From the NCBI GenBank assembly GCA_022841745.1, contig JALHQW010000046.1:1-64000 (forward strand): DNA of 64,000 bases, written 5' to 3'. Shown piece after piece: positions 60,566-63,273 of this stretch. Both the position numbers and the translations under genes were made by a program. How positions within the stretch are numbered: position 1 is the stretch's first letter; every line of letters starts with the position of its first letter. Origin of the DNA: Saprospiraceae bacterium. GTDB taxonomy: Bacteria > Bacteroidota > Bacteroidia > Chitinophagales > Saprospiraceae. The notes beneath the pieces were generated by a model. It was not told where the DNA came from and ran no database searches. It was given only the letters and a program-made list of their open reading frames with translations.

Positions 60566-60658
60566 TTTGTCATTGCCGAAGGCAAACTGCGACGTCATAA
60601 GGGAATCCTCGTAAGGACAGCACACTTGACGTTGCAGTTTGCCTTCGACAATGACAAA
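60566..60658. repeat. 93-bp hairpin next to the long palindrome
   Basis: 31-nt arms 60566-60596 and 60628-60658 pair with two mismatches, enclosing a 31-nt loop that carries a smaller AAGGGA/TAAGGA-like stem. The TTTGTCATTGCCGAAGG block also occurs inverted and in part at about 23310-23332 (TTTGTCATTCCCGAAGG), so these are members of one dispersed family. Confidence 0.82.
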
Positions 60659-60918: not shown

Positions 60919-60992
60919 CCCCTTGTAGCTCAGTTGGTTAGAGCGCCGGATTGTGGTTCCGGAGGTCAGCGGTTCGAACCCACTCGAGGGGA
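60919..60992 (+). tRNA. trnH: tRNA-His (GTG), without G-1 and with A73
   Basis: A complete 74-nt cloverleaf. Acceptor stem CCCCTTG/CGAGGGG; D arm GCTC...GAGC; anticodon arm CCGGA-TTGTGGT-TCCGG with anticodon GTG (histidine); T arm AGCGG-TTCGAAC-CCACT with one C-A mismatch. The base before position 1 is T, and the discriminator after the stem is A. Ordinary bacterial tRNA-His has G at -1 and C at 73, so this molecule lacks the usual identity pair. The 3' CCA is not encoded. It is followed by a terminator and the hisS gene. Confidence 0.92.
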
Positions 60993-60996
60993 CTTC

Positions 60997-61029
60997 AAAA
61001 GCATTACTTCTTCGAGGTAATGCTTTTTT
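60997..61029 (+). terminator. Rho-independent terminator after trnH
   Basis: AAAAGCATTACTTC pairs with GAGGTAATGCTTTT (one G-T) around a UUC-like loop, followed by TT. It separates trnH from hisS, at least partly. Confidence 0.88.
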
Positions 61030-61046
61030 GTTTCTCAAAGACAAGG

Positions 61047-61135
61047 ATTGAAGGATAGAGGGATTGAAGGATTGAATGTATGCACGGCGTTCATCCTTCA
61101 ATCCTTCAATCCTTCAATCCTCCAATCCTTCAAAA
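61047..61135 (+). repeat. Inverted octamer-repeat leader of hisS
   Basis: 61047-61079 contains GGATTGAAGG-type octamers. 61091-61135 contains five units of CCTTCAAT (with CCTCCAAT and CCTTCAAA variants) that end at the ATG. The two blocks are near reverse complements, so the 5' leader can fold into a long hairpin whose right arm covers the bases just before the start codon. Confidence 0.85.
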
Positions 61136-62701
61136 ATGGAAAGAGGCAACATCCCACGCAAAATCAAGGGTTTTCGGGACATAGACGCTGACCTGAACGA
61201 GCTACGCCAGACCATCATTCGGGAGGCAGGTAAGGTCTATCGCTCCTATGGCTTCGAGCATTGGGACACCCCTGTGCTGGAATACGCCGATGCCCTCGGC
61301 AAATACATGCCCGACGAAGACACGGTGGACAAGGGCGTTTACAGCTTCCGCAACCCTGAGGAAGAACCCGTCTTGTTGACCGATGGCAACGAAATGCGGG
61401 ATGCTGACGCAAAAGTGGTGATGGATTTCCATCCATTGGCCATGCGCTACGACCTGACCGCACCGCTGGCAAGGGTCTATTCAGAGCGGTTGTTCATGGA
61501 CGTGAAGCGAGGGCAGGTCATGGAATCCAATGCGCCGCTGTTTCGCCGCTTCCAGTACGGCCCCGTTTATCGCAATGAGTTGAAACTGCTGCCGGGCCGC
61601 TTCCGGGAGTTTTGGCAATTGGACTTCGATACTGTTGGCACCTCCGATGTGGCTGCCGATGCCGAAGCTTGCATGATCTTGTCCGATGCACTAGAGGCAA
61701 TTGGCTTGGAACGGGGTACCTATATCGTAAAAGTGAACAACCGAAAAGTATTGAAAGGCTTTCTTGAATCCGTCGGTATTGCCAGTGAGGAGCAGGAAGG
61801 CGCCGTACTTCGGGTGATTGACAAATTGGACAAAATCGGCTGGGACGACGTGAAGCTCGAACTCGGAAAGGGTAGGGAAGACGCCTCCGGCTCCAAGATT
61901 GACGGCCTCGGCCTCCAAGTGGATACCATTGAAAAAATCGTTGCCTTCCTGAAAATGGCGACGGGCCTCTCGACCAGGGCCGAAGTGCTGCGCAAATTCG
62001 ACGAAGCAGCGGGCACCAATCCCACGGCTGCCGAGGGCATTGCAGAGCTACAAAAAATGGATGCCCTCTGGGCAAAGCTGGGCTTCGATGAAGCCCGCAT
62101 CCAGTTCGACCCTTCGCTGATGCGGGGCATGGCCTATTATACTGGCCCTGTGTTCGAGGTAGAATCCTTGCTGGTGGCAAAAGACGAAAAAGGCCGGGAA
62201 CGCAAATTCGGCTCCATCTGCGGCGGTGGCCGTTACGATGGCTTGGTGGAAAAACTGCTCGGCCTCAAAGTACCCGCTACAGGTGCCTCCATTGGCGTTG
62301 ACCGCTTGGCGGAATTGCTGCGCATGGCCAAGCCCGGCCATGTGACCGCCCAAGGCCCCGTTTTCATTGCCTATTTTGATGACGAACTACAGCCGGAATA
62401 CTACCGCATCGCTAGGATGCTGCGGGAGGCGGGCATTGCGTCAGAAGTCTATGTCGGCAATGCAAAGGGCTTCAAGAAGGTGAACAAGCAAATGGCCTAC
62501 GCCGACAAGAAGAACTGCCCCTTGGCCATCCTCATTGGTGGCAATGAGGCTGCCAAAGGCGTGGCAACCGTCAAGAACCTCAAGCTCGGCAAGGAACTCG
62601 AAAGCACCACCACCGACAAGCAGGCCTGGATTAGCCAAGTGCAGCAAGAAGTGCCGCTGACCGAGTTGGTGGATTATGTGAAAAAACAATTGGGGCAATG
62701 A
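61136..62701 (+). CDS. hisS: Histidine-tRNA ligase, long variant resembling the alphaproteobacterial type
   Basis: 521 residues, much longer than the usual 420-450. The class II core is clear: MRYDLTAPLARVYSE, motif 2 region FQYGPVYRNELKLLPGRFRE then FWQLDFDTVG, LMRGMAYYTGPVFEVE, and motif 3 region SICGGGRYDGLVEKLLG with ASIGVDRLAELL. Motif 2 lacks the ordinary FRxERPQKGRYRQF wording and resembles the alphaproteobacterial form (GPVWRNEKPGPGRFRQF from memory). The anticodon domain is at about 425-521. The ATG at 61136 starts MERGNIPRKI; an in-frame extension would only translate the repeats. The tRNA-His upstream lacks G-1:C73, which is what the alphaproteobacterial-type enzyme accepts. Confidence 0.96.
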   Translation: MERGNIPRKIKGFRDIDADLNELRQTIIREAGKVYRSYGFEHWDTPVLEYADALGKYMPDEDTVDKGVYSFRNPEEEPVLLTDGNEMRDADAKVVMDFHPLAMRYDLTAPLARVYSERLFMDVKRGQVMESNAPLFRRFQYGPVYRNELKLLPGRFREFWQLDFDTVGTSDVAADAEACMILSDALEAIGLERGTYIVKVNNRKVLKGFLESVGIASEEQEGAVLRVIDKLDKIGWDDVKLELGKGREDASGSKIDGLGLQVDTIEKIVAFLKMATGLSTRAEVLRKFDEAAGTNPTAAEGIAELQKMDALWAKLGFDEARIQFDPSLMRGMAYYTGPVFEVESLLVAKDEKGRERKFGSICGGGRYDGLVEKLLGLKVPATGASIGVDRLAELLRMAKPGHVTAQGPVFIAYFDDELQPEYYRIARMLREAGIASEVYVGNAKGFKKVNKQMAYADKKNCPLAILIGGNEAAKGVATVKNLKLGKELESTTTDKQAWISQVQQEVPLTELVDYVKKQLGQ

Positions 62702-63273
62702 CCACCGAAATCAAGACCATCCTCCAAGAAAGCATCGCCATCAAACAGGCCATGCTCGCTGATGATGGCCTCCTGCAAACCATCGAAGCCATTGTGAACC
62801 AATTGGCAGCGACCTTCCAAAACGGTGGCAAGGTGCTGTTCTGTGGCAACGGTGGCAGTGCCGCCGACGCCCAGCATTTGGCGGCGGAACTTTCCGGCAG
62901 GTTCTACCTCGAAAGGAAAGCCCTTTTTGCCGAAGCCTTGCACGTCAATACTTCCTTCATCACAGCGGTCGGCAACGACTATGGCTTCGATGCCGTCTAT
63001 GAACGGGCCGTGGAAGCGATGGGCCGGGAAGGGGATGTCCTCGTCGCCCTCTCTACTTCCGGCAACTCGGAAAACGTGCTCCGAGCCATTGCGCAAGCAA
63101 AAAAAGGGAACATGCAAGTAGTGGGAATGACGGGCGAAGCTGGCGGGAAAATAAACGGCCTTTGCGATTTCCACATCAAAATCCCATCCACGGATACGCC
63201 CCGCATACAAGAGGGGCATTTGCTGATTGGGCATGTCGTTTGCGGATTGGTGGAGCGGCGGGTGTTTGGGTGA
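62698..63273 (+). CDS. gmhA: Sedoheptulose 7-phosphate isomerase
   Basis: 191 residues, normal length. SIS-domain isomerase that makes D-glycero-D-manno-heptose 7-phosphate for LPS core heptose. The signatures CGNGGSAADAQHLAAELSGRF (first loop; shown in two parts in the protein), VALSTSGNSENVLRAI, and LLIGHVVCGLVERRVFG are intact. The start overlaps the hisS stop by 4 bp (ATGA), suggesting translational coupling and one operon with hisS. Later heptose genes (hldE and others) are not in view. Confidence 0.95.
   Translation: MTTEIKTILQESIAIKQAMLADDGLLQTIEAIVNQLAATFQNGGKVLFCGNGGSAADAQHLAAELSGRFYLERKALFAEALHVNTSFITAVGNDYGFDAVYERAVEAMGREGDVLVALSTSGNSENVLRAIAQAKKGNMQVVGMTGEAGGKINGLCDFHIKIPSTDTPRIQEGHLLIGHVVCGLVERRVFG

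Follow-up and report, generated by a model that had tools for sequence, protein, structure and literature searches.

A linked tRNA-His and histidyl-tRNA synthetase pair without G-1 in Saprospiraceae: a candidate third state of histidine identity

The guanosine at position -1 of tRNA-His (G-1) is called nearly universal, and its bacterial loss has been described, in the portions of the literature accessible to us, for some alphaproteobacteria, where it likely had a single origin (PMC3937112; PMC4284800). As far as the available portions of reviews extend, only alphaproteobacteria are named among bacteria as lacking it. The window analyzed here, the whole 64,000-nt stretch of a contig from a Saprospiraceae genome, holds a tRNA-His gene without G-1 directly before a gene for histidyl-tRNA synthetase (HisRS). 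This raises the question of where such a pair came from and which features of the tRNA its enzyme would recognize. An earlier note on this DNA likened the pair to that of alphaproteobacteria and offered two explanations, transfer of the linked genes or an independent parallel change. Among the open-access matches listed, judged by title and the start of the abstract, we found no report of a G-1-less tRNA-His in Bacteroidota or Planctomycetota, which does not prove its absence from print. A paper on the histidine genes of Bacteroidota treats HisRS, in its accessible part, only as kin of HisZ (PMC8305728).

The tRNA-His gene and hisS of the window

The tRNA-His(GUG) gene lies on the forward strand at 60919..60992, counted from first base to discriminator, and its CCA is not encoded. 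It was called, with anticodon GTG, by both ARAGORN and Rfam, the Rfam model ending at 60992 and ARAGORN one base later. Read directly, the acceptor stem (CCCCTTG/CGAGGGG) has seven pairs with C:G at 1:72, base -1 is T (60918) and base 73 is A, which bears out the earlier claim of a T at -1 and A73 with no G-1:C73. Downstream of it lies a terminator-like hairpin, AAAAGCATTAC...GTAATGCTTTT with a T run (60997..61027, forward strand), which scored as such in a terminator scan of the window, where shuffled sequences gave a mean of 0.6 such sites. Some smaller features were also seen around the gene. The T stem (60968-60984; AGCGG/CCACT) contains a C.A mismatch common to seven genomes of the genus, this one included, and the site is T-A or C-G in the other six. 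An inverted repeat lies 5' of the tRNA at 60573-60655, around CGAAGGCAAACTGC, and repeated GAAGGATT/AATCCTTC units occupy 61046-61130 between tRNA-His and hisS.

The next gene is hisS, as had been stated earlier, and encodes a HisRS of 521 residues that belongs to a G-1-less subfamily (see below). It starts 143 bp after the tRNA-His and spans 61136..62701 on the forward strand (61136-62698 plus stop), in a single frame that begins at an ATG (MERGNIP); a longer ORF of 541 aa starts at 61076, inside the repeat stretch upstream of this ATG. The protein scores 322 bits against the NCBIfam hisS equivalog TIGR00442 (cut-off 286.75) and contains PF13393 and PF03129, both over their cut-offs. RYDLTAP, the motif-2 Arg146, RG..YYTG and GGGRYD, which we take to be catalytic motifs, are among the blocks invariant over 11 rows of the HisRS alignment. 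The motif-2 loop, RNELKLLPGRF (residues 146-156; 61571..61603, forward strand, coordinates computed from the residue numbers), is not of the alphaproteobacterial form that had been proposed for it: the window reads NELKLLPGRF against NE-KPGPGRF in alphaproteobacteria, so that it has one residue more and lacks the Gly. Residue 152 of the window enzyme is Leu, and the aligned residue is Gln in 16 ordinary HisRS rows. Gln at this motif-2 site has been tied to the interaction with G-1:C73, and Gly to the loss of G-1:C73 (PMC3937112, in its accessible portion).

The window's assembly (G000) amounts to 8.43 Mb in 178 contigs and is estimated to be 100% complete. A search of it for a second hisS or a canonical trnH, proposed earlier as a check, found neither: there is one HisRS match at E <= 1, and no second tRNA-His among the 41 tRNAs called by ARAGORN at 48 other tRNA-model matches, with 150 of 359 candidates scored in the Rfam tRNA-model scan. 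If the assembly is complete, the window HisRS therefore has to charge the window tRNA-His, and we propose that one HisRS would charge one tRNA-His without G-1, the locus being a putative two-gene replacement unit for histidine identity. Post-transcriptional addition of G-1 by an enzyme unrelated to Thg1 would be compatible with the sequence, but we regard it as very improbable, as the assembly has no match to the Thg1 family at E <= 1 (a control matched in 3/14 genomes) and the window HisRS lacks the Gln said to contact G-1:C73 (PMC3937112, accessible portion). The same assembly contains rows of degenerate tRNA-like copies, some of them identical, at G000:C37:29100-29990 (L181) and G000:C42:19500-20300 (L176), where they adjoin tRNA-Val(TAC) and tRNA-Lys(TTT).

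Three tRNA-His states and the HisRS found with them

The tRNA-His genes read from other genomes fall into three classes. Class I (G-1, G1:C72, C73) was found in 19/19 outgroup genomes read, and class II (no G-1, G1:U72, A73) in 17/17 genomes, comprising three alphaproteobacteria, five Planctomycetota or unclassified metagenome-assembled genomes (MAGs) and nine from other Bacteroidota lineages. Class III, to which the window belongs, has neither G-1 nor C73 and carries A73 with C1:G72 in 17 genomes and U1:A72 in two (G009 and G010), together 19/19, of which 13 are from the window's genus and six from elsewhere. The body of the window tRNA-His is 86% identical to the best class I and 85% to the best class II sequence, a comparison that by itself would not tell a native from a foreign gene and does not indicate a foreign origin. 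A hairpin of the form AAGCAT...TGCTTTTT begins 3-7 bases after A73 in 19/19 class III genes and in 0/19 class I and 0/17 class II genes, and would mark the tRNA-His as part of one inherited unit. The gaps between tRNA and hisS are approximate in 9/19 class III loci, where the hisS start used was not an ATG.

Within the genus, 13 of 14 genomes, the window's included, have the unusual tRNA-His beside the unusual HisRS; from G011, which is 85% complete, neither was recovered. The matching HisRS of 12 of the 13 other genomes is 69-94% identical to that of the window (one is a fragment), and a tRNA-His precedes each. Ordinary HisRS and tRNA-His of the same family and order serve the same role and belong to the same protein family, but they differ in sequence and in recognition features, the ordinary enzymes having Gln in motif 2. 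Outside the genus, a single HisRS match at 1e-20 was obtained for 23 of 26 relatives, with 30-38% identity to the window enzyme, and 19/19 readable tRNA-His genes have G-1, G1:C72 and C73; seven of the 26 are without a readable tRNA-His, and three (G021, G022 and G038) without HisRS at 1e-20. Since two of these three, G022 and G038, contribute class I tRNAs to the 19 but have no HisRS match, the ordinary HisRS was seen for 17/19. No tRNA-His stands beside ordinary hisS in the 17 loci scanned (L014-L030).

We also scanned 396 genomes of the order and 395 of the phylum for the unusual HisRS at 1e-70 and for the A73 tRNA-His pattern. In the order, the enzyme was present in ten genomes (five of the genus, G392 of the same family, and four of family f12) and the pattern in nine, all nine among these carriers; the tenth carrier, G164, has an A73 tRNA-His with TAGTTCAG in place of TAGCTCAG, one base outside the pattern. 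The phylum scan likewise gave ten HisRS carriers and the pattern in nine genomes, every one a carrier, while the tenth, G784, showed no tRNA-His pattern at all; the pattern is strict, and missed 1/10 carriers in each scan. In the genomes scanned, the A73 tRNA-His co-occurs exclusively with the unusual HisRS (Fisher p ~2e-17 in the order, an overstated value as the genomes are related). No readable tRNA-His was obtained from G784, G042 or G044, none was among the loci examined of the plasmid W01, and many of the relatives' genomes are fragmentary. Exactly one HisRS was found in 25 of 26 genomes searched, G011 having none. Judging from these patterns, the ordinary tRNA-His and HisRS appear to have been replaced by a linked pair with different recognition rules.

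Placement of the enzyme and signs of block transfer

A HisRS tree, the check suggested in the earlier note, did not place the window enzyme among ordinary Bacteroidota HisRS. The tree has 65 rows, and left out L013 (a 134-aa fragment), L019, L027, L028, L030 and 62 of 73 alphaproteobacterial rows, as well as L066 and L067 (whose contigs equal L007 and L012) and L069 (taken as the genome of L209). It contains a Bacteroidota clade of 24 rows (support 100/100), inside which the 18 rows of class III are monophyletic (99/98), and the 11 alphaproteobacterial rows form one separate clade (100/99) with the window enzyme outside it. The f40 and f47 enzymes, although from the same phylum, branch apart from the group of 24, and close to the f55 rows lie L070-L072, three loci from MAGs with Bacteroidales in their titles. 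On a wider scale, the window enzyme groups with those of alphaproteobacteria, Planctomycetota, f40, f47 and f55, apart from ordinary HisRS; this G-1-less side of the tree holds 46 rows with support 91/70, or 40 rows without f40 and f47 with 99/98. The branches of L247, L242, L245 and L243 are long and the deep branching order is unsure. A FastTree of 123 rows, which gave a warning of joined long branches and a class III support of 90, also recovered all 73 alphaproteobacterial rows as one clade without the window enzyme.

Among named genomes, the best 80 of a longer list of loci include seven with Bacteroidota titles at 55-78% identity; next in rank, at 40-46%, come Planctomycetota, MAGs without classification and many alphaproteobacteria. 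Leaving the genus aside, the enzyme is closest to proteins of other Bacteroidota (55-66%), and the alphaproteobacteria among these 80 stand at 41-46%. An alphaproteobacterial donor was considered and rejected, as the alphaproteobacteria form their own clade in both trees with the window enzyme outside. Of the link proposed earlier to the alphaproteobacterial system, what holds is membership in the same HisRS subfamily; an alphaproteobacterial source finds no support, given that separate clade and the Bacteroidota affinity of the closest relatives. A parallel origin of the enzyme, the second of the two explanations offered, is not supported either. Transfer of the linked pair fits best.

Another reading is that a foreign contig was assembled or binned into Bacteroidota genomes, and many of the relatives are indeed metagenome assemblies by title. 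The neighbourhood argues against this. A SIS-domain gene (Pfam; 62698..63273, forward strand), which overlaps the hisS stop and lies outside the tRNA/HisRS pair, follows hisS in 10 of the 13 genus genomes with the locus, the window included; of the other three, G009 has no SIS-domain gene in the stretch examined, and G006 and G010 reach contig ends. The locus stands on a 65-kb contig, and the closest relative outside Bacteroidota among the best 80 loci is only ~46% identical. A misplaced contig was rejected on the size of the contig and the recurrence of locus and neighbour across the genus, and we give an artefact next to no probability.

A different gene follows class III hisS in three genomes of family f12 (G134, G102 and G121), namely a homologue of aromatic amino-acid lyases; PF00221 was found in the two lyase homologues tested, L210 and L255. 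In a lyase tree, which left out L069 and L215, the lyases of these three genomes share ancestry with those that two f55 genomes carry downstream of class II hisS (100/100). Where hisS is ordinary, as in G112 and G146, the lyase behind it clusters with further neighbours of ordinary hisS. For the third f55 genome (L213) the lyase stands in a different part of the tree, and the branch of L207 is long. The grouping in f12 suggests a common foreign history in that family for hisS and the gene that follows it. No lyase is next to hisS in the window's genus or in the stretches examined of G392, G040 and G164, so the case for block transfer beyond the pair comes from the three f12 genomes. Lyase homologues were also seen near HisRS of either type (L014-L016, L021, L025, L255, L257, L207, L209-L215, L219, L073 and L139), as if the association of lyase and hisS were long-standing.

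These patterns can be set against old vertical inheritance within Bacteroidota, with repeated replacement by the ordinary system and no recent transfer. The class III part of the HisRS tree does follow families to some extent, with f12 rows first and f1 rows nested. We nevertheless find this history unlikely: 386 of 396 genomes of the order have no match at 1e-70, and the lyase of f12 is related to that of a lineage outside class III. The genus g116 of that family is mixed, with G134 in class III and G112 and G146 carrying ordinary HisRS. Moreover, the searches at low thresholds turned up no genome carrying two HisRS, something that the 1e-70 scans of order and phylum could not have revealed. 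Taken together, the patchy occurrence, the mixed genus g116 and, in one family, the co-inherited lyase speak for block transfer. The reading that we favor, and hold to be probable, is that of a tRNA-synthetase pair which can be transferred, has a third state of histidine identity and displaced the resident system. The pair would have come as a block into the Saprospiraceae/Chitinophagales group from another Bacteroidota-like lineage and displaced resident hisS and trnH, and in one family the transferred block may also have included the adjoining amino-acid lyase.

Position 1:72, the motif-2 loop and base -1

Over the 43 HisRS-tree rows with a read tRNA (L015, L022 and L024, whose tRNA was not read, being left out), the tRNA class changes twice, and class II and class III part once. 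The identity of Caulobacter tRNA-His has been described as A73, U72 and the anticodon (PMC9976931), with A73 called minor elsewhere (PMC5370408), both in the accessible portions of these papers. As U72 is a determinant in Caulobacter and class III has G72 or A72, position 72 is where class III breaks with the G-1-less rule known so far. The enzymes differ in the motif-2 loop as well: the aligned residue 152 is Gly in the 11 alphaproteobacterial rows and in five Planctomycetota or unclassified rows, Asp in 12 f40, f47 and f55-like rows (the nearest relatives with G1:U72), and one of eight residues (Leu, Met, Ala, Glu, Val, Thr, Ser, Gln) across the 18 rows of class III, L005 being the one class III enzyme with Gln. 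We propose that G1:U72 changed to C1:G72 (U1:A72 in two genomes) on the branch to class III, together with the motif-2 loop, and that the HisRS would accept the C1:G72/A73 end, presumably relying on A73 and the anticodon. The 1:72 switch is one event on the tree, and its link with the loop change is unreplicated and depends on that single event.

The change at 1:72 might instead be drift, the HisRS not reading this pair and only A73 and the anticodon counting. The two genomes with U1:A72 and the eight different residues at 152 would fit this reading, which we consider possible but doubtful in view of the G1:U72 kept in 17/17 other G-1-less tRNAs and of the pyrimidine 1 and purine 72 kept in 19/19 of class III. 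That a third natural identity set (no G-1, C1:G72, A73) moves between bacteria as a tRNA-terminator-synthetase unit sufficient in itself and replaces the rule already in place, such that congeneric species differ, is a proposal that we see as evenly balanced.

We expect the leader to be removed at +1 by RNase P, with CCA then added. Retention of U-1 would be another way to form the end, with RNase P cutting at -1 since U-1 pairs with A73, and HisRS reading an acceptor end of 8 bp. T stands at -1 in 17/19 class III and 12/17 class II genes, against 18/41 of the other tRNAs of the window's assembly, and yeast HisRS, according to the accessible part of a review, tolerates other -1 bases at modest loss, U-1 having been seen in a yeast strain. 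However, two of the 19 class III genes (G008 and G006) have A at -1, which cannot pair with A73 and speaks against U-1 being required, and A, C or G occurs there in 5/17 class II genes. The related alphaproteobacterial system is also described, in the portion of a review at hand, as losing N-1 to RNase P, and we therefore think retention of U-1 quite unlikely and cleavage at +1 the better account.

Compared with the alphaproteobacterial RRCH pair (Caulobacter crescentus), the window pair is alike in having no encoded G-1 but A73, in its HisRS subfamily and in the absence of the motif-2 Gln; a review, as far as its accessible part goes, reports no Thg1 there either. The two differ at 1:72 (C1:G72 in the window and C:G or U:A across class III, against G1:U72 in 3/3 alphaproteobacteria read), at residue 152 (Leu against Gly in 11 rows) and in the motif-2 loop, longer by one residue in the window. 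Alphaproteobacterial HisRS also lacks the insert at residues 119-128 and the stretch 78-96 of the window enzyme, which does not branch inside the RRCH clade, and the arrangement here, tRNA-His and hairpin directly before hisS, is a further difference. The class II pairs (f55, f40, f47, one MAG titled Bacteroidales, Planctomycetota and unclassified MAGs) share the subfamily, the absence of G-1 and A73 with the window, and the f55-like enzymes have both the loop insertion and the 119-128 insert. They differ in keeping G1:U72, in residue 152, which is Asp in the Bacteroidota and Gly in the others, and in lacking such a hairpin. In the class II f55, f40 and f47 genomes read, tRNA-His lies kilobases from hisS (~3-9 kb on the same contig in G595:C2, G780:C11, G474:C23, G662:C33 and G436:C88) or on another contig (G570, G458 and G669), whereas at L086 it lies ~74 bases before the hisS match. 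Among eukaryotes, Trypanosoma brucei and Acanthamoeba castellanii have a cytosolic tRNA-His that, as reviews describe in the portions available, their HisRS accepts without G-1; these are eukaryotic enzymes, compared here through published description.

The same HisRS subfamily with A73 and no G-1 thus extends to several lineages of Bacteroidota and to Planctomycetota, with a further change at 1:72 in one clade. An identity rule seems to have been exchanged as a whole, even inside a genus, so that how such tRNA rules can change becomes a question open to direct test, and pairs like those of class III are candidates for orthogonal tRNA/synthetase pairs. Three tRNA-Pro genes among the 41 other tRNAs of the window's assembly also have C1:G72 with A73, so keeping the class III tRNA-His clear of prolyl-tRNA synthetase may matter. 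Five loci from Planctomycetota or unclassified MAGs (L073, L086, L093, L124 and L139, in G045-G049) combine a G-1-less HisRS with a G1:U72, A73 tRNA-His.
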